In this document: piece by piece, positions 38,297 to 46,258 of the stretch
Numbering within the stretch: position 1 is the first letter of the stretch
Layout of the letters: the number at the start of each line of letters is the position of its first letter
Source of the DNA: Paramuribaculum sp.
Lineage (GTDB): Bacteria; Bacteroidota; Bacteroidia; Bacteroidales; Muribaculaceae
Reading direction: 5' to 3'
Assembly: GCA_029060545.1 (NCBI GenBank)
Contig: JAIDTT010000066.1
Span: 1 to 48,385, forward strand
Length of the DNA stretch: 48,385 nucleotides
Position numbers and translations under genes: made by a program
Notes under the pieces: model-generated
Told to the model about the DNA's origin: nothing
Database searches by the model: none
Seen by the model: the letters and a program-made list of their open reading frames with translations, nothing else

Positions 38297-38423
38297 TTAT
38301 GATAATAATCGGTGAGGCGGTACAAGCCTTCAAAGGGAGGTTGTAAAGTTACGACAAAAACGCAAATAATTTACATAATCAAACACTGATTTTTACTCCC
38401 GACTATCGAATAAGTTATTAACA

Positions 38424-38460
38424 TTGATGCAATGCGCTACTTAGTAGTGCATTGCATCAA
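38424..38460. repeat. 37-bp near-perfect palindrome upstream of rsmH
   Basis: Eighteen-base arms (38424-38441 and 38443-38460) pair with one G/T-type mismatch around a single central base; the outer part is TTGATGCAATGC/GCATTGCATCAA. It lies 36 bases past the stop of the FKBP-array gene and 128 bases before the rsmH start. It may be a terminator for the array, an operator for the division cluster, or a leader hairpin. Confidence 0.85.
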
Positions 38461-38475
38461 TAATGGTGATATTTG

Positions 38476-38483
38476 CAAATGTA
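38476..38483 (-). promoter_or_regulatory. Putative -7 promoter box for the dcw cluster
   Basis: The minus strand reads TACATTTG (TAnnTTTG). Transcription would begin near 38469, so the 37-bp palindrome would lie in a ~170-base 5' leader of rsmH. A weaker box, TAACTTTA, occurs at 38344-38351, closer to rsmH. Confidence 0.45.
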
Positions 38484-38495
38484 AATCTACGGGGC

Positions 38496-38984
38496 TCAGA
38501 TACCGAGTGCGCGCACCAGCAGACGGTTGTAGTCGGTAGAGGCTGCCGATACCTGATCGGGGGTGACGGAATCGGTGTAGAGACCCTCGTGCAGACCTTT
38601 GATGAGCAGGGGTATATTGACCTTTACGCCCTTGGCTTTAAGCTCCTTGATCTGGCCAAGGATGCTCATGGCCGACTGTGCACCCTGGGTGTATCCGGCC
38701 GATGAGGCCGGATTGGCGATGATCATTTCGACGCCCTCGGTGTATGCTTCCTTATCGAAGGGTGTCGACATAGTGTCGATGCGGCATAGCTGATCGTAGG
38801 CCACGAGGTAGCCGTAGAGACCGGAGAGCGAGTCGGCCACCTGCTTGGGGAAGGGGAGATCGGCGTTCGATACGGCATACTCCATACGCTTTGGCTTGGC
38901 TGCATCCTCCGACTTGCCGGAGCATCCGGCTGATAGCAGCAGGATGGCTGAGAGGGTTAAGATATTGAGAATTATCGATTTCAT
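38496..38984 (-). CDS. FKBP N-terminal-domain lipoprotein lacking the PPIase domain
   Basis: The 162-residue lipoprotein (SPII signal, lipid Cys21 after LLSAG) shows the same mature N-domain as its upstream neighbours: DSLSGLYGYLVAYDQL at the start, then GYTQGAQSAMSI and LLIKGLHEGLYTDSVTPDQ, matching the FKBP-array gene at 39918 (LFIAQLHDRLTADSVNAEQM). The protein stops where the linker to the FKBP fold would begin, so the catalytic domain is absent; no remnant of it is seen in the downstream 200 bases. It lies five bases after the previous FKBP gene. It may be a hetero-dimer partner or a decaying paralogue; a plain lipoprotein is the alternative. Confidence 0.8.
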   Translation of the reverse strand: MKSIILNILTLSAILLLSAGCSGKSEDAAKPKRMEYAVSNADLPFPKQVADSLSGLYGYLVAYDQLCRIDTMSTPFDKEAYTEGVEMIIANPASSAGYTQGAQSAMSILGQIKELKAKGVKVNIPLLIKGLHEGLYTDSVTPDQVSAASTDYNRLLVRALGI

Positions 38985-38989
38985 TTGCT

Positions 38990-39910
38990 TTACTTTTTGG
39001 GCGATGACTGGAGAAGCTCGATATCGGCAATGATGAGGCGGCCGGGCTGCACGGCGGCGAGAGCGGAGCGGGTACCGGCGTTGGTGATGTAGAATACGTA
39101 GTGAGAGCCTACGGGCATCATCTCAATGCCGTCGCGGAGGGCGCCAACCTGTACGTCGGCCAGCGGACCTTCCACCCAATCGTCGGTATTGGAGTCGATC
39201 ACACTGCCTGAAAAATCGCGCAGGGTGTAGCGGAAGCGGATCACGTCGTGTTCGCCGGGCATAGGTCCGTCGCCTTCGCGGACCACACGGTAGCAGAGCG
39301 TGGAGTCGACTACCTCGATGGTGGAGTCGGATGCCAGAAGATTGTCGAGAAATTCGGCCGAGCGGGCCATATTATCGGTGCGTATCTTCTTCATCATCTT
39401 GTTTTGCTGGATGCGCTGCTGCTTGAGGCGGCCGAGAATGCGTGTCTGCGCACGTCCCATCAGTCGGGTGTAGGCGGCTTCGATACCGGCTGCCTCCACG
39501 GAGTCGGGGTGTTCACGCATCAGTGAGCTATGGAATTGCTCCTTAGCGTATTGACGGTCCACCTCAATACCGGATGCTTCGAGCAGATCAAGCTGGTTGG
39601 CCATAAGCAGGCCGGTGGCGAGACCTTGCATCAGCTCGGACGATTCGTGGTCGGCCGAGAATACGTCGGCTGCGCCGGTGAAGTATGCATCGATCGATAT
39701 TTCAGCGGCGGCTGCGGAGTCGAGCTGATTGTAAGCACAAGAGGCGCTAAGGCCGAGCTGACGACCCCAATAGTACGACAGGGAGTCGTCGACGGTGACC
39801 ATTTGCGCCGTGTCGCAGCCGTAGGGATCGGGCGGTAACGCACCGTAGCATCCCCCCATGGTGACGGATGCCGTGATGGCTACTGCCGCGAGGATATGGA
39901 TTGATTTCAT
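38990..39910 (-). CDS. FKBP-type lipoprotein with degenerate PPIase domain
   Basis: This encodes 306 residues from the ATG at 39910. The frame is open 10 codons further, but 39910 gives an SPII signal (lipid Cys21) and a 7-base gap after the upstream gene. The FKBP N-domain (about 40-175; DSLSYYWGRQLG) leads through a charged helix to an FKBP-like fold. There the tyrosine of the pocket is kept (FRYTLRDFSG), but the F of the FD pair is I (VIDSN) and the VIPGW segment reads VGALRDG. The LAYG loop is replaced by GTRSALAAV. Isomerase activity is therefore doubtful; chaperone or dimer function could remain. Confidence 0.85.
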   Translation of the reverse strand: MKSIHILAAVAITASVTMGGCYGALPPDPYGCDTAQMVTVDDSLSYYWGRQLGLSASCAYNQLDSAAAAEISIDAYFTGAADVFSADHESSELMQGLATGLLMANQLDLLEASGIEVDRQYAKEQFHSSLMREHPDSVEAAGIEAAYTRLMGRAQTRILGRLKQQRIQQNKMMKKIRTDNMARSAEFLDNLLASDSTIEVVDSTLCYRVVREGDGPMPGEHDVIRFRYTLRDFSGSVIDSNTDDWVEGPLADVQVGALRDGIEMMPVGSHYVFYITNAGTRSALAAVQPGRLIIADIELLQSSPKK

Positions 39911-39917
39911 ACCGGTA

Positions 39918-40787
39918 TCAGTCAATGATTTCGAGTTCAACGATTACGAGCTCACCGGGGAGCACGGAGCCGTCGGGTGTGCCCTGATCGCCGAAGGCGA
40001 GCGAAGCGGGAATGTAGAGTGTGGCGATGGTGCCGCCGGGTAGTGTGGTGAGCGCTTCGCCGAGGCCGGGCATGGTAGTCTGGCTGTTGACGGGCTGCGG
40101 TTTGCCTCCGGTGGAGAAGAGCTCCTTGCCACTGAGAGAGGTGGCGCTTACGATGGCGGGAACCACGGATCCTGGCTGAGCTACTTCGCCTGTGCCCTGC
40201 TTGGTGATCTCATAGGTGAGACCGCTGGCTGTGACCCCGATAGAGGGATTTGCCTTGCGCTTCTCGTCGAGGAATTTCTCGGCGCGGATCTTGTTTTCAT
40301 TGACCTTCTCGAGAGTTGCCTGCTGTATCATGGCGTGCGCACGGGCTTCGAGTGCGGTGACGGTGGCTATATCGGCCTCCATCTGCTCGGCGTTCACGGA
40401 GTCGGCTGTGAGGCGGTCATGCAGCTGGGCGATGAAGAGGGCGGGATCGATGTCGATACCTGCCTGACGCATCTGGAGGGTCATCTGCGCAAGCTGAAGC
40501 GCCTGCGACAGACCGGCGATGTAGGAGGCTGATACGGAGTCGGCCGAAAGCAGGGTGTTGAGGCCTGCAAGGAAGTCGGCGGAATTGAACTGAGCTTTCT
40601 GCTCGTCGGTCATGTGGGCATACTCATCGTTGAGCTGCGCTCCGGCTGTGCGACCGAGATAGTAGGATATCGAGTCGCCGAAAGTTGATGGTGTGGCCGA
40701 CGGATCAGCAGCAGGAGCCTTGTCGGATGAGCATGAGGCTGCCAGGAGCATGGCCGGCAGCATGAGTGCGGTGATTGCCTTTTTCAT
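39918..40787 (-). CDS. FKBP-type lipoprotein with altered PPIase active site
   Basis: The 289-residue lipoprotein (SPII signal, lipid Cys19) has the FKBP N-domain (about 38-150; DSISYYLGRTAGAQL) and a linker helix (NENKIRAEKFLDEKRKANPS). The C-terminal FKBP fold has IPASLAFGDQG and a final ELVIVELEIID strand. In the pocket, the usual YxG is replaced by VSATS. FDSS reads LFST, and VIPGW reads TMPGL. Overall fold residues are kept, so it is expected to fold, but activity is uncertain. It lies 12 bases after the FKBP gene at 40800 and 7 before the next. Confidence 0.87.
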   Translation of the reverse strand: MKKAITALMLPAMLLAASCSSDKAPAADPSATPSTFGDSISYYLGRTAGAQLNDEYAHMTDEQKAQFNSADFLAGLNTLLSADSVSASYIAGLSQALQLAQMTLQMRQAGIDIDPALFIAQLHDRLTADSVNAEQMEADIATVTALEARAHAMIQQATLEKVNENKIRAEKFLDEKRKANPSIGVTASGLTYEITKQGTGEVAQPGSVVPAIVSATSLSGKELFSTGGKPQPVNSQTTMPGLGEALTTLPGGTIATLYIPASLAFGDQGTPDGSVLPGELVIVELEIID

Positions 40788-40799
40788 ATCCGACGGTGA

Positions 40800-41687
40800 T
40801 TATTCAGGAAGTAATTCGACTACGTCGATGTCGAATATAAGTGTCTGCGCCGGACCGATCACGGGCGGGCCCTGCATTCCGTAGGCGAGCTCCTGGGGTA
40901 TGTAGAATACGTAGTGAGCGCCTTTGTTCATCATCATGAGGGCTTCGGCGAAGCCTTTGATTACGCTTTCCGGACCGAGGCGCACGGGCTGGCCCGGCTC
41001 GGTGGCGTCGAACTGCGAGCCATCAACAAGCGAACCTTTGTAGTAGATCAAAGCCTGCTGGCGCGGACCGATGGTGGGGCCTTCGCCTTTCTTAATCACC
41101 TTATAGGCCAGACCGGAGTCGGTGACTTTCACTCCGGGCACTGTCTTGATACTGTCCATGAATGCTTTGCCGGCGGCGATGTTGGCCTGGGCGATATCCA
41201 TGAACTGCTGCTGTGCTCTCTGCTGCTGCTGTTGCTGCTCAAGCTGCTGACGCTCCATCACGGGCTGGATGAGAGCCTGTACGGCGCGCATATAGGTGTT
41301 GAGGGCTGTGGTGTCGGGGTTGTTGACCTGAGTGGCGAATGTGGTGTTGAAGAGCTCCATATTGCAGGGGAGACCTTGCACGCGGAGCTTGATAAGTTCG
41401 TCGCGCATGGCGGCACCCATCTTGAGGCCGTCCATGTATCCGGTGTTGACGGTGTCGGCGAGCAGTGCTTGTGTCACTCCACGGAGAAATTCGGAGCGGT
41501 AGAGGTCGCGCTCGGCGTCGGTGATTTCGGGAGAGTTGTTGATGTTCTGTCCCATGATGGTGCCCTGGGTGTAGCCTACATAATAGCCTACGGAGTCGGG
41601 CGTGTTGGTGGGCTTGAAGTCGGTTTTGGCCTGTGCGGAGCTGCCTATGAGGGCTAAGCCGGCCAGGATGATGGTACGTTTTTTCAT
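40800..41687 (-). CDS. FKBP-type peptidyl-prolyl isomerase, periplasmic
   Basis: This encodes 295 residues from the ATG at 41687. The frame is open 30 codons further into the sirtuin gene, but only 41687 starts with a signal peptide (MKKRTIILAGLALIGSSAQA), and its ATG overlaps the sirtuin TGA by four bases. The N-domain (DSVGYYVGYTQGTIMG) is followed by a Gln-rich helix (ERQQLEQQQQQQRAQQQ). A canonical FKBP domain follows: YYKGSLVDGSQFD, VIKGFAEAL, IPQELAYG, LIFDIDVVEL. All pocket residues except Trp (here Phe) are intact, so it should be an active isomerase. Confidence 0.93.
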   Translation of the reverse strand: MKKRTIILAGLALIGSSAQAKTDFKPTNTPDSVGYYVGYTQGTIMGQNINNSPEITDAERDLYRSEFLRGVTQALLADTVNTGYMDGLKMGAAMRDELIKLRVQGLPCNMELFNTTFATQVNNPDTTALNTYMRAVQALIQPVMERQQLEQQQQQQRAQQQFMDIAQANIAAGKAFMDSIKTVPGVKVTDSGLAYKVIKKGEGPTIGPRQQALIYYKGSLVDGSQFDATEPGQPVRLGPESVIKGFAEALMMMNKGAHYVFYIPQELAYGMQGPPVIGPAQTLIFDIDVVELLPE

Positions 41688-42400
41688 TGATTGTGAGATG
41701 ATGTGACTGGTGAGGAAAGGATGGGGAAAAGCTGTGCCATGCCTTCGGTGGCTGTGGCGGGGATTACGGTGATCCACGAGGGTACAGGTGCCGGACGCGG
41801 GTCGATGTAGTATACCGGGATGCCGCGGCGGGCATAGTTGACAAGGCCGGCTGCGGGATACACGGCCATGCTTGTGCCTATGATCACGATTGCGTCGGCC
41901 TGCTCCACTATCTGCACTGCCGGCTCATACTCCGGCACCGATTCCTGAAAGAATACGATGTGGGGGCGGACGGGGTCGCCGTATTGGTCGCGTGTGTCGG
42001 GCGTGGTGTCGAGATTGTCGGGGGTGAGGGTGTAGACGCGCTCGGGATGTGTGAGCGAGCGTATCTTCATCAGCTCGCCGTGGAGATGGAGCACTTCGGA
42101 GGAGCCTCCGCGCTCATGAAGGTTGTCGACATTTTGGGTGATCACCACTACGCGCCAGAATTGTTCGAGGCGGGCAATGAGGCGATGGGCTTCGTTGGGC
42201 TCGACGGACATAAGCTCGTGGCGGCGGATGTTGTAGAACTGATGTACCAGAGCGGGATTGCGTGCGAATCCGTCGGCACTGGCCACGTCCATCACCGGGT
42301 ATTTGTCCCATAGTCCGCCGCTGTCGCGGAAGGTGGATATGCCGCTCTCGGCGCTTACGCCGGCGCCGGTGAGCACCACCAGCAGGGGTCGCTTTTCCAT
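41684..42400 (-). CDS. SIR2-family NAD-dependent deacylase without zinc-site cysteines
   Basis: The 238-residue cytoplasmic sirtuin carries the NAD motif GAGVSAESGISTFRD (12-26), TQNVDN (88-93), catalytic His107 (HLHGE), and C-terminal IIGTSMAVYPAAGLV. Typical CobB-like enzymes have a four-Cys zinc site between HGE and the return to the Rossmann fold. This protein contains no cysteine anywhere, and the matching stretch (about 110-148, Thr/Asp/Pro/Arg-rich) has none of the four ligands. It is translationally coupled (ATGA) to the FKBP gene at 40800 and begins the second transcription unit of the FKBP array. Confidence 0.9.
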   Translation of the reverse strand: MEKRPLLVVLTGAGVSAESGISTFRDSGGLWDKYPVMDVASADGFARNPALVHQFYNIRRHELMSVEPNEAHRLIARLEQFWRVVVITQNVDNLHERGGSSEVLHLHGELMKIRSLTHPERVYTLTPDNLDTTPDTRDQYGDPVRPHIVFFQESVPEYEPAVQIVEQADAIVIIGTSMAVYPAAGLVNYARRGIPVYYIDPRPAPVPSWITVIPATATEGMAQLFPILSSPVTSSHNQ

Positions 42401-42436
42401 ATCGGGGAGAGTATAGCTATATTATATTAATGTGAG

Positions 42437-42479
42437 TGTGCCGCACCGGGGCCGCATATCCGGGCCTCGCTGCGGCACA
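42437..42479 (-). terminator. Hairpin between the two halves of the FKBP array
   Basis: TGTGCCGCA (42437-42445) pairs with TGCGGCACA (42471-42479), with a further GC-rich inner dyad. It lies 25 bases past the FKBP stop at 42504 on the minus strand and is followed by an AT-rich run, so it probably ends the upstream unit and leaves the sirtuin to start the next. Confidence 0.7.
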
Positions 42480-42503
42480 TTCTATGGATGGTCGGACCGG
42501 CTA

Positions 42504-43427
42504 TTAGTTAGCGGGCTCTGCTTCGCAGATTTCGAGTTCGAAAATGAGGGTTTCGCCGGGTTCGATCGACTGATTGCCCTGATTGCCGTAAGCGAGGTCG
42601 GCAGGCATGTAGAGGACTACCTTGGAGCCTGCAGGGAAGGTGGTGAGAGCTTCGGAGAAGCCTTTAACTACACCGTTGACGGGGAATTTCACGGTTTCGC
42701 CGTTGGAGGAGTCGAACTGAGTGCCGTCGATGTGCTTGCCTACGTACTTCACGGGTACGGGATCCTTGGCTTCCTTATCAGCAACGGCACCGTTGCCGAG
42801 GGTGATTACCTTGTAGCTCAGACCGCTTTCGGTGGTCTTGATTTCGGAGTCGGTAGCCTTGAGGGAGTCGACATACTGCTTGCCGCGGTTGTCGTTGGCG
42901 AGAGCTTTCTCTTCCATAGCCTTGAGCTGAGCGGCCTGCATCTCCTGCTGACGCTGCATCATGATGGTCTGAGCTTTGCCCATGAGCATCTGAGCGTTGC
43001 CGTAGATGGAGGAGTGGATGGAATCGGCGATGGAGTCGGTCTTGAAGGCTGCGGAGAATGCCTTGAAGTAGTCGTCGACGTTCATCTCCACGCCCATCTG
43101 AGCCTGGCTCATGAACTGCTGCTTGAGCTGGAGGGCGTAGGACATACCGAGGATATACGACTGGTTGGCGGTGTCGACGTCGAGCACGGTCTTCATACCG
43201 GCGAGGAATTTATCCTTGTCGAAGTTGGCCATGATTTCGGGGGGGAGCATACGGCTGATGTTGGCGCCGAGATCGAGACCCTGTACGGTACCGCCATAGT
43301 AGGCGAGGGAGTCGGAGAAGTTGGAGAGTCCGGAGGGATTGGCGAGGTCGCCGTTGGCAGCGTTCTTGCTGCAGGATGCAGCTGCGATCATCACGGCAGC
43401 TGCGCCGAATAAGAGTAATTTTTTCAT
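42504..43427 (-). CDS. FKBP-type peptidyl-prolyl isomerase lipoprotein
   Basis: The 307-residue lipoprotein (SPII signal, lipid Cys19 in AAASC) has the FKBP N-domain (about 38-150; DSLAYYGGTVQGLDLGANI) and a long helix. A canonical FKBP domain ends the protein: VKYVGKHIDGTQFDSS, VVKGFSEAL, MPADLAYG, LIFELEI. Apart from Phe at the Trp position the catalytic pocket is complete. It follows the FKBP gene at 43497 by 69 bases. By similarity to FkpA/Mip-type proteins it should act as an isomerase/chaperone for envelope proteins. Confidence 0.93.
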   Translation of the reverse strand: MKKLLLFGAAAVMIAAASCSKNAANGDLANPSGLSNFSDSLAYYGGTVQGLDLGANISRMLPPEIMANFDKDKFLAGMKTVLDVDTANQSYILGMSYALQLKQQFMSQAQMGVEMNVDDYFKAFSAAFKTDSIADSIHSSIYGNAQMLMGKAQTIMMQRQQEMQAAQLKAMEEKALANDNRGKQYVDSLKATDSEIKTTESGLSYKVITLGNGAVADKEAKDPVPVKYVGKHIDGTQFDSSNGETVKFPVNGVVKGFSEALTTFPAGSKVVLYMPADLAYGNQGNQSIEPGETLIFELEICEAEPAN

Positions 43428-43496
43428 TTTATAAAATGTGAATTGAATTTATTGTTTTGTTGTTGTCGTTGATATTGTCTGTTGTGGTGCGGTGCG

Positions 43497-44717
43497 TCAT
43501 TCCCCGGCTGTCGGGGTAGCGGCGGGCTGCTGCAGTTCGTCGGTGTGGCGCAGATCCACGAGCTCGACGTCGAATATGGTCACGGCGTCCTTGGGTATCT
43601 TGCCATATACTCCTTCATGGCCGTAGCCCTGATCGGAAGGGATATATATGCGGTAGATACCGCCCTTCTTCATCTGCATCAGGCCGTCGCGGAAGCCGGC
43701 TATAAGCTCGCGCATATCGAATATGGTGGGCTTGCCGGGCTCTGTGCCGCTGAATTGTGTGCCGTCAATGAGTGAACCGGAGTAGTTGACCATCACGAGG
43801 TCCTCGGCTCGGGGTGAGTCGCCTTCACCTTCGGTGACGATCTCCACCATAGTGCCTGTGGGCAGGTTGATGATGCCTTCGCGGCGTGCTATCGAGTCGA
43901 GAAAGGCCTGAGAGTTGTCGAGTAACGCGTCGATATCGGCGAGCTGCTCCTGCATGGCTTTAAGATATTGGGTAGCCGTGAGGGGCGTGAAGCCCGTAGG
44001 GCGGCCATTGAGCATCTTGTCCATGGCGAGGTTGAAGCGTACGATGCTGAGTTCGTAGCCACCGGCCTGCTGCTGGCGTTCGAATGAACGGTAAGCGGCT
44101 ACGCCTGCTTCGATACCGTCGAGGAATGCGTCGTCGGTACGGGCATAGCTGAGTGCGGTGGTGACGCCTCGGCGATAGGCTGCTACGATCTGCGGCTCAT
44201 CTTTGGCCGATTTGCGGGCCATATAGCCGGCCCAGACGGTGGCGAGTGCCTGACTGGCTTTCTTGATCTCGGATTTAGATATCTTGCCTGAGCCTTTGAC
44301 CATACGTGTGTTGAGGTCGGTGAGATAGGTGTCGGCCTCGCTTTCGGTGAATCCGGTGGACTTGCGGTCGATGGCTTTGAGGATGGTCTTACGGAATACG
44401 TCCATATCCACCGTGTAGCCACCGATCTGCTCGGCCTGCTCTACGTAGCGGTAGATGCGGGCACCCTCTTCAAGTCCCTGTACGTAGGGATCGTTGGTGC
44501 GGGCGGAGTCGAGCGCCAGAGTCACACCCTTCTTGAAGGATGCTTTCTGCGCGGGAGTCATCGATTGGGTATGGCTCTGCATCGGCTCTTTCCAGAGGGT
44601 GGCGAGGGCGGTGCTTATCGAGTCGACTTCAAATTGCTGGAGCTCATGGATACGGGCCTGTGCCGTGAAGGCGGATGCGAGGGCCGAGATGCAGAGCGTC
44701 AGGAGGAGTTTGCGCAT
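43497..44717 (-). CDS. FKBP-type protein with two N-terminal domains
   Basis: The 406-residue secreted protein (SPI signal ending FTAQA) is about 100 residues longer than its neighbours because the FKBP N-domain is duplicated. The halves align by eye: QKASFKKGVTLALDSARTND with EPQIVAAYRRGVTTALSYAR, VQGLEEGARIYRYVEQAEQI with LDGIEAGVAAYRSFERQQQA, and RKSTGFTE with GRPTGFTP. One FKBP domain follows: YSGSLIDGTQFSG, LIAGFRDGL, IPSDQGYG. The catalytic Asp of FD is Ser. It lies 21 bases after the FKBP gene at 44739. Confidence 0.9.
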   Translation of the reverse strand: MRKLLLTLCISALASAFTAQARIHELQQFEVDSISTALATLWKEPMQSHTQSMTPAQKASFKKGVTLALDSARTNDPYVQGLEEGARIYRYVEQAEQIGGYTVDMDVFRKTILKAIDRKSTGFTESEADTYLTDLNTRMVKGSGKISKSEIKKASQALATVWAGYMARKSAKDEPQIVAAYRRGVTTALSYARTDDAFLDGIEAGVAAYRSFERQQQAGGYELSIVRFNLAMDKMLNGRPTGFTPLTATQYLKAMQEQLADIDALLDNSQAFLDSIARREGIINLPTGTMVEIVTEGEGDSPRAEDLVMVNYSGSLIDGTQFSGTEPGKPTIFDMRELIAGFRDGLMQMKKGGIYRIYIPSDQGYGHEGVYGKIPKDAVTIFDVELVDLRHTDELQQPAATPTAGE

Positions 44718-44738
44718 ATCGTCGTCGTTGACAGGATA

Positions 44739-45362
44739 TTATTTGATTACTTCGAGCAGCTCTACGTCGAATATCAGAGTGGCGTTGGGGCCGATTGTGG
44801 GGCCTGCGCCGTGAGCGCCGTAAGCGAGTTCGGCGGGGATGTAGAGGCGCCACTTTGCACCTTCGTTCATCATCTGGAGTGCTTCAACCCATCCGGGGAT
44901 CACCTGTGTGACGCCGAATGTGGCGGGCTCGCCGCGATCTACGGAGCTGTCGAATACGCTGCCGTCGAGCAGACGTCCGGTATAGTGTACTTTCACCTTA
45001 TCGGTAGCGGTGGGCTTGGGTCCTTTGCCCTCTTCGAGTACTTCGTACTGGAGACCGGAAGGAGTGGTGGCTACCTCGGAGCGCTTGCCGTTTTCCTCAA
45101 GGAATTTTTTGCCGGCTTCGGCATTGACCTTGGCGAGTTCGGCTACCTGAGCCTGCTGGCGCTTCTCCATTTCGGCGAAGAAGTCGTGGATCACGGTCTT
45201 GGCTTCCTGATAGCTCATCTTCTGCTCTCCCTTGCCGAATACGGCGGCTACGCCGTCGGCGAAGTCGGCTACGTTGAGATCCTGAATACCGCTTGAGCGG
45301 AAGTTATTGCCCATGCTGAGCCCGAGGGCATAGCTGATTTTGTCGAGTTGGTTTGTATCCAT
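44739..45362 (-). CDS. FKBP-type peptidyl-prolyl isomerase, signal-less
   Basis: The 207-residue protein has no signal peptide ([20 protein letters not shown]), so it is predicted cytoplasmic unless exported otherwise. The N-domain is short but intact, and the FKBP domain is the most canonical of the array: [25 protein letters not shown] with the Trp kept, [18 protein letters not shown]. It begins the upstream half of the array, just behind a -7 box. It may be the ancestral, active copy. Confidence 0.95.
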
Positions 45363-45754: not shown

Positions 45755-46258
45755 ATGGATTCTGCCAATTTTCAAACTCGATTGATGAGCCTACAGGCAA
45801 ATATGTTGAATTTCGCTGTCATGCTCACTTCCAACCGCGACGATGCTTATGATCTTCTCCAGGATACTACTCTGAAAGTTCTCGCAAATAAAGAAAAATA
45901 TGTTGAGAATACCAACTTCAAGGGTTGGGTATTTACTATTATGCGCAACATATTTATCAACAACTACCGCCGCGTGGTGCGCTCGGCCACCGTCATTGAC
46001 CAGACCGAGGACTACTACCACCTGAATGTTTCGCAGGATTCCGCATTTGAATCGCCCGAAGATACCTACGCTGCATCCGAAATCACTGCCGCTATCAACG
46101 AATTTCCCGAAAAGTATCGCGTGCCTTTCTCGATGCACGTAGCCGGCTACAAATACAATGAGATCGCTGAAGAGATGGGTCTGCCCTTAGGCACTATCAA
46201 GAGCCGCATCTTCTTCGCCCGCCAGGAGCTCCAGAAGCGCTTCGCCGACTTCCGCTGA
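45755..46258 (+). CDS. ECF-type RNA polymerase sigma factor
   Basis: The 167-residue sigma-70-family protein has region 2 (about 15-85; DDAYDLLQDTTLKVLANKEK and GWVFTIMRNIFINNYRR, the -10-binding helix) and region 4 (about 110-165; FPEKYRVPFSMHVAGYKYNE, then MGLPLGTIKSRIFFARQELQ, a helix-turn-helix for the -35 element). No anti-sigma gene is adjacent, so it may be controlled by transcription or by a partner elsewhere. Its own -7 box is of housekeeping type. A strong terminator follows. Confidence 0.93.
   Translation: MDSANFQTRLMSLQANMLNFAVMLTSNRDDAYDLLQDTTLKVLANKEKYVENTNFKGWVFTIMRNIFINNYRRVVRSATVIDQTEDYYHLNVSQDSAFESPEDTYAASEITAAINEFPEKYRVPFSMHVAGYKYNEIAEEMGLPLGTIKSRIFFARQELQKRFADFR

Follow-up and report, generated by a model that had tools for sequence, protein, structure and literature searches.

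According to the work on SIB1 FKBP22, this studied relative, which was modelled on Legionella Mip, is a dimer in which alpha1 of one N-domain lies against alpha2 of the other; its client binding resides in that N-domain, and an engineered form with a second N-domain in the chain, NNC-FKBP22, is a monomer whose peptide isomerase activity is comparable (PMC3179164). In this study, we have analyzed a 48,385-nucleotide stretch of DNA from Paramuribaculum sp. (contig JAIDTT010000066.1; here called the window), in which seven intact open reading frames for FKBP-related proteins form an array on the minus strand at 38496-45362; they are numbered members 1 to 7 along transcription, from 45362 to 38496. 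Our best explanation, to which we give an even chance of being correct, is that the array is a lineage-specific FkpA/Mip-like expansion that would comprise one signal-less isomerase and six exported folding factors, monomeric and of N-N-C build (two FKBP_N units, then FKBP_C), and would range in function from isomerase to holdase.

Member 1 (207 amino acids; 44739-45362) is an FklB/Mip-like FKBP with one FKBP_N unit, a canonical FKBP_C domain, and no signal. In the exported copies, two FKBP_N (alpha1-alpha2) units stand in tandem; a long helix and the FKBP domain come after them in all but member 7. This N-N-C build is found in member 3 (a lipoprotein of 307 amino acids; 42504-43427, with unit 1 at 43173-43313 and unit 2 at 42969-43169, as located by hhalign and unit profiles), member 4 (295 amino acids, secreted by way of signal peptidase I [SPI]; 40800-41687, starting at the ATG at 41687 and not at an upstream GTG), member 5 (a lipoprotein of 289 amino acids; 39918-40787), and member 6 (a lipoprotein of 306 amino acids; 38990-39910). 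Member 2 (SPI secreted, 406 amino acids; 43497-44717) has a doubled N-N block, and member 7 (a lipoprotein of 162 amino acids; 38496-38984) has two N units only and ends before FKBP_C. The gaps within the FKBP runs, calculated from the coordinates, are 21, 69, 12, 7, and 5 bases. Leader types were called by eye, and the calls of a crude regular expression were overridden where they differed (for example, for member 1 and for members 4 and 7 of genome G007); this gave four lipoboxes, of which that of member 6 (MGGC) is atypical, two SPI-type leaders, and one gene without a signal. An earlier note on this DNA had described these seven genes, with spacings of 5 to 69 bases outside a sirtuin gene, a shared FKBP N-domain, the same distribution of leaders, and a copy at 38496 without an FKBP domain, and all of this was upheld.

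The evidence for the tandem units comes from profile comparisons. FKBP_N scored above the Pfam cut-off in members 1 to 6 (in member 6 narrowly, 22.4 against 22) and missed it in member 7 (13.8), in which both units were recovered by profiles trained without it (E values of 1.3e-4 and 8.8e-13). FKBP_C scored above the cut-off in members 1 to 5 (in member 5 narrowly, 23.1 against 21.1) and missed it in members 6 and 7; phmmer nevertheless gave an alignment of member 6 to Mip (2.5e-8), and member 7 stops before the domain. With unit alignments built from the family's 74 exported and 54 member-1-type copies, hhalign matched unit 1 to unit 2 with an E value of 6e-10 and a probability of 96.6, and the single unit of member 1 was matched by unit 1 (2e-8) as well as by unit 2 (1.4e-5); the linker-helix controls gave probabilities of 0.1 to 0.3, with an E value of 0.22 for the linker control. 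Strict unit counts overlook divergent Bacteroides-type units, for which a comparison of 52 longer exported copies from named loci was used: both units matched the single-unit family (6e-10 and 8e-8), and unit 1 matched unit 2 more weakly (2.2e-5; probability, 76.5). Judged by these profiles, the N-N-C build is common to the exported copies here and to those of Bacteroides and its relatives. Among 119 sampled genomes of the order, 37 had matches to the N-N profile at E values of 1e-5 or below, and in 12 genomes, from 11 families, the match ran across both units, as read from the listed ranges.

In member 2, the N-terminus (44250-44717) matches positions 1 to 161 of the 176 in the N-N profile (E value, 4.1e-9), and its two halves, block 1 (44283-44654) and block 2 (43908-44282), are 34% identical (E value, 5e-22), so that the doubled N-domain described in the earlier note was also found. 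Its orthologues in G007, G117, G011, G048, and G121 are 285 to 304 amino acids long and have a single N-N block, to which both halves align at the same stretch; among the full-length comparisons, only the G022 copy (405 amino acids) has the block doubled.

A structural model of member 3, built with AlphaFold2 from 82 sequences (mean predicted local distance difference test [pLDDT] score, 90; predicted template modeling [pTM] score, 0.73), contains two helical units, a 58-residue helix, and the FKBP domain. Its best structural matches were FkpA (Foldseek E value, 4.4e-17) and Mip. The alignment with FkpA starts at model residue 82, which is the start of unit 2; therefore, unit 2, the long helix, and the FKBP domain together correspond to one FkpA chain, with unit 1 as the extra element. 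Whole-chain alignments of member 3 with FkpA and Mip had root mean square deviations of 5.1 to 6.9 Å, which we take as a putative hinge.

This architecture bears on the proposal, made in the earlier note, that the proteins pair through the N-domain. Homo- and heterodimers formed in this way could be V-shaped and mixed, one arm being active and the other inactive; the N-domain is common to all members, the studied relative SIB1 FKBP22 is dimeric, and the genes lie side by side, so that their products are probably made together. However, the exported copies already hold two N units per chain, the equivalent engineered NNC-FKBP22 is a monomer (PMC3179164), and the sole single-unit protein, member 1, has no signal and should not meet the exported ones. 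Because the exported chains share the architecture of that monomer, we consider such dimers unlikely. Of the folding-factor set that the note envisaged, the part that stands is that the genes form a true family whose features are divided among its members; the N-domain heterodimers are the less supported part.

The second line of evidence concerns the catalytic pocket, which was compared in a table of 79 FKBP domains from 22 loci, numbered as in human FKBP12. Member 1 keeps every residue compared, as do all 22 member-1 rows, Trp59 included. Member 3 (Ile56 to Val and Trp59 to Phe) and member 4 (Phe46 to Leu and Trp59 to Phe) are near canonical; Trp59 is present in none of the 57 exported rows, 44 of which have Phe there. 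According to the title of its database entry, FKBP12 with Trp59 replaced by Phe still gave a rapamycin complex (PDB 2dg4). In member 2, Asp37 is changed to Ser, Val55 to Leu, and Trp59 to Phe, and Asn or Ser takes the place of the catalytic Asp37 in 9 of the 15 member-2-type rows. Member 5 retains only Gly58 of the main pocket residues; Tyr26, Phe36, Asp37, Phe46, Trp59, Tyr82, and Phe99 are lost both in the window and in G022, and the counterparts by position in G007, G117, and G011 have near-canonical pockets. In each of the four full arrays, member 6 lacks Phe36, Phe46, Trp59, and Phe99, and its Tyr82 is replaced by Phe or missing; since the change is found in all four, it is probably ancestral. 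The paralogues thus differ by position in pocket and in leader, and the pockets read in the earlier note were recovered: canonical at 44739 and, with the changes given above, at 42504 and 40800, altered at 39918 and 38990, and with FD changed to FS at 43497.

The loss of pocket residues could also mean that members 5 to 7 are decaying duplicates that have no function of their own and are tolerated by gene dosage. These members evolve faster (84 to 88% protein identity to G022, against 93 to 98% for members 1 to 4), and fewer than seven members are present in 29 of the 33 arrays read in the genus. For a single genome pair, the window and G022, the ratio of nonsynonymous to synonymous substitution rates (dN/dS) was 0.065, 0.086, 0.089, 0.053, 0.117, 0.110, and 0.158 in members 1 to 7, respectively, the last value resting on 103 codons; the neighboring Sir2 gene gave 0.048, and the controls rsmH, ftsL, and ftsI gave 0.046, 0.034, and 0.064. 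All members are under purifying selection. This includes the altered copies (0.110 to 0.158 in members 5 to 7), for which the earlier note had named such selection as support for a functional system, and which therefore are not decaying; pseudogene decay was rejected on dN/dS. In addition, the position of member 7 is kept even in genomes where the protein is only about one-third identical, and there are no frame breaks in the altered copies of G022, G007, and G117, apart from a contig break in G022, which speaks against the strain-specific array with disrupted copies that the note had named as a refutation of its reading. We therefore disfavor decay and consider it very improbable. Constraint is stronger on the FKBP part than on the N part in all six members that have both (0.083 against 0.132 in member 5 and 0.060 against 0.116 in member 6). 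Synonymous divergence to G022 was about 0.15 in members 1 and 3, compared to 0.27 to 0.63 in the nine other genes compared, which may reflect high expression and codon bias.

The genus search covered 34 genomes, and arrays were read in 33; G016, which is 70% complete, gave no FKBP_C match at an E value of 0.01 or below. FKBP-related members numbered seven in 4 genomes, five in 2, four in 3, three in 14, and two in 10, and these counts are lower bounds, since some contigs end near the array. The seven-member arrays of the window, G022 (split over two contigs, with the break inside member 7), G007, and G117 have the same order, so that the conserved order for which the note had proposed to look is kept in 4 of the 34 genomes; by eye, the leader pattern is likewise shared (none, SPI, lipoprotein, SPI, and three lipoproteins). 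In G012, seemingly the same three-gene array is present on two contigs (L055 and L056), by duplication or assembly redundancy. Among the 14 named-locus rows listed, the member-1-type proteins closest to those of the family came from an unclassified Bacteroidales metagenome-assembled genome (identity, 75%) and from two members of the Muribaculaceae (75 and 71%), followed by one labelled Porphyromonadaceae (67%), with the remainder at 63% or below; on this basis, the family of the organism is probably Muribaculaceae. The array has expanded, in this lineage, from an FKBP cluster of two or three genes that is widespread in Bacteroidales; an exception among the loci of this order is L140, with a single FKBP gene.

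The C-domain tree was built by a quick method from few columns, and its branches are long; in it, the four member-6 domains (those of the window, G022, G007, and G117) fell together with a support of 93, as did member 4 and its counterparts in G007, G117, and G011 with a support of 95. In the N-domain tree, the four member-7 rows formed one group (support, 100) and the four member-6 rows another (support, 89). Lipoproteins consisting of the N part alone also occur at other positions in other arrays, at L163:9470-10006 (G121) and L037:10544-11086 (G054, of another genus), and are possibly independent of member 7. The N-domain tree, which leaves out the L037 copy, places the L163 copy outside the member-7 group; therefore, N-only copies may have arisen more than once. 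Furthermore, three proteins of 283 to 326 amino acids beside FKBP pairs (L047:5286-6137, L118:9435-10415, and L126:9374-10294) have a recognizable N part and gave no match to the FKBP_C profile built in this analysis.

BamJ and BamK are, like the array products, isomerase lipoproteins of this phylum (PMC12578637), and the array might encode dedicated subunits of the Bacteroidota beta-barrel assembly machinery (BAM) complex comparable to these surface proteins. The BamJ model (NF053689; cut-off, 100 bits plus a lipoprotein signal) gave 121.6 bits for member 1, which is signal-less, and 24 to 82 for members 2 to 5, with members 6 and 7 not listed. Outside the array, a single FKBP_C match was obtained from this genome (98.55% complete) at an E value of 0.01 or below, on contig C39, and it is this lone other FKBP, with a lipobox by eye, that passes the BamJ model at 128.1 bits. 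No array member was listed for BamK (NF053690; cut-off, 120 bits) at an E value of 0.1 or below; the best score in the genome was 15.4 bits, and since the model also stayed below its cut-off in 14 of 14 control genomes, absence is not claimed. In the six positions after the lipoprotein cysteine, members 3, 5, and 6 have no or one acidic residue, whereas BamH to BamK have at least two; member 7 has two in the window and its G007 counterpart, by eye, none. Membership in BamJ or BamK was rejected on the model scores, and, taken together, these differences make a place in the BAM complex improbable. PRK11570 (FklB-like; NCBIfam) was passed by member 1 only (208.4 bits against a cut-off of 198), with members 2 to 6 at 49 to 112 bits and member 7 not listed, and membership in GldI (TIGR03516) was rejected (best member, 44.4 bits against 157.6). 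Elsewhere in the genome, two open frames match Rotamase (parvulin type) and three OmpH/Skp matches exceed the cut-off; the array is therefore a supplement to, and not a substitute for, other folding factors. A search of open-licence PMC full texts found no paper that combined Muribaculaceae, peptidyl-prolyl, and FKBP, and nothing on point by title and the start of the abstract.

We postulate, by analogy, that where two chains of FkpA or Mip relatives would pair through their N units as a V-shaped dimer cradling its clients, the second unit in the same chain would take the partner's place in the exported copies, giving monomers, four of them lipid tethered. Members 3 and 4 are predicted to act as isomerases; members 2, 5, and 6, which have lost the catalytic Asp or most of the pocket aromatics, would be shifted toward a holdase role, and member 7, with N-N only, would be a holdase alone. 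The prediction that members 2, 5, 6, and 7 would mainly hold clients follows from the N-domain location of client binding in the studied relative. The clients are probably outer membrane proteins and lipoproteins, which is a guess. More tentatively still, and with some doubt, we suggest that Bacteroidales rebuilt the V-shaped FkpA dimer as a natural single-chain pseudodimer that no longer needs to dimerize, and that this monomeric unit was then duplicated in this genus into a periplasmic set graded from active isomerases to holdases that are pocket-less or N-N only, lipid tethered or soluble, whose members might pass clients on.

Several observations weigh against the explanation of the array as monomeric folding factors ranging from isomerase to holdase. 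In all four full arrays, member 6 retains Tyr26 and Asp37, so that some activity is possible to judge by these residues, and it is for this reason that our confidence was lowered to an even chance. NNC-FKBP22 is described as having client binding 6.5-fold weaker than that of the dimer, together with low protein-refolding activity (PMC3179164); a monomeric N-N-C protein may therefore be a poor cradle. The putative packing of units 1 and 2 as a pseudodimer is drawn from the sequence and the helix list of the model. For member 7, the model is of moderate quality (pLDDT, 75.5; pTM, 0.49) and shows six helical segments, of which five exceed 10 residues; Foldseek gave no PDB match for it at an E value of 0.001 or below, and VIA likewise gave no usable match. 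The units of member 2 are weakly recognized (one at an E value of 0.0035), and members 4 and 5 are not separated in the N-domain tree. The dN/dS values, moreover, come from one genome pair and, for member 7, from few codons; in the FKBP part they are higher in members 5 and 6 than in members 1, 3, and 4 (0.029 to 0.043), so that constraint there is somewhat looser, though far from absent, and since the FKBP part has the lower ratio in every member compared, its lower ratio in members 5 and 6 does not in itself point to a function there.

Between members 3 and 4 lies a minus-strand gene for a predicted Sir2/CobB-like deacylase (41684-42400), 103 bases from member 3 and overlapping member 4 by 4 bases. 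CobB-type sirtuins have four zinc-binding cysteines, and in that stretch this protein and its counterparts have none to two, with a YxxR motif in most of the 46 aligned rows, some of which come from overlapping loci of one genome. In 13 of the 33 genus genomes, the gene has the orientation of the array and lies within it or directly after it; rsmH then follows on the fetched stretch in 8 of those 13 and on the second contig in G022. In 24 of 80 named loci and 3 of 20 loci from other genera of the family, it is the divergent upstream neighbor; the named loci rule out a random insertion, and this predicted zinc-less sirtuin is tied to Bacteroidales FKBP genes. The array lies upstream of rsmH-ftsL-ftsI, three genes named by reading and by position. 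Division clusters often begin with mraZ; only 199 bases (38297-38495) separate member 7 from rsmH, too few for that gene. This interval contains a 19-nucleotide inverted repeat (38423-38461; 95% complementary, with a 1-nucleotide gap), a possible boundary of the transcription unit that is absent from the terminator-like sites listed, of which the window has 3 against 6.6 expected. A Bacteroides-type promoter pattern had no match across the window; a sigma-70-type scan gave 9 sites against 4.9 expected (standard deviation, 1.9), but no minus-strand site in front of member 1, where the 12 inverted repeats look unremarkable. An extracytoplasmic function (ECF) sigma factor gene (45755-46258) lies upstream of the array in divergent orientation, and the same neighbor is present in G007, G011, G015, G048, and G121.

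FKBPs of the types of E. coli FkpA, Legionella Mip, and FklB have the same domains in the same order, FKBP_N and then FKBP_C. Unlike the exported array members, they have one N unit instead of two, and the array differs further in its organization, in the four lipid-anchored members, and in the members without pocket residues or the whole FKBP domain. The cluster of Bacteroides, Parabacteroides, and Prevotella is likewise headed by a short, canonical gene that is followed by a longer, exported one, with Sir2 adjoining in many cases; however, it has two or three FKBP genes where the array has seven, and its Sir2 gene, often present, is upstream and divergent, not within the array. The periplasmic folding machinery of these gut bacteria has received little attention, and the array provides a ready-made set of paralogues whose isomerase and holdase functions evolution appears to have separated. 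It also parallels, in nature, an experiment in protein engineering, and asks whether the two-armed cradling of the dimer is needed for foldase function or a tethered single chain is enough. Like the exported members, NNC-FKBP22 of Shewanella sp. SIB1 has tandem N units and then one FKBP domain; it is a laboratory construct with a glycine linker (PMC3179164), whereas the version in the array is natural and diverged and occurs in at least 11 families of the order.

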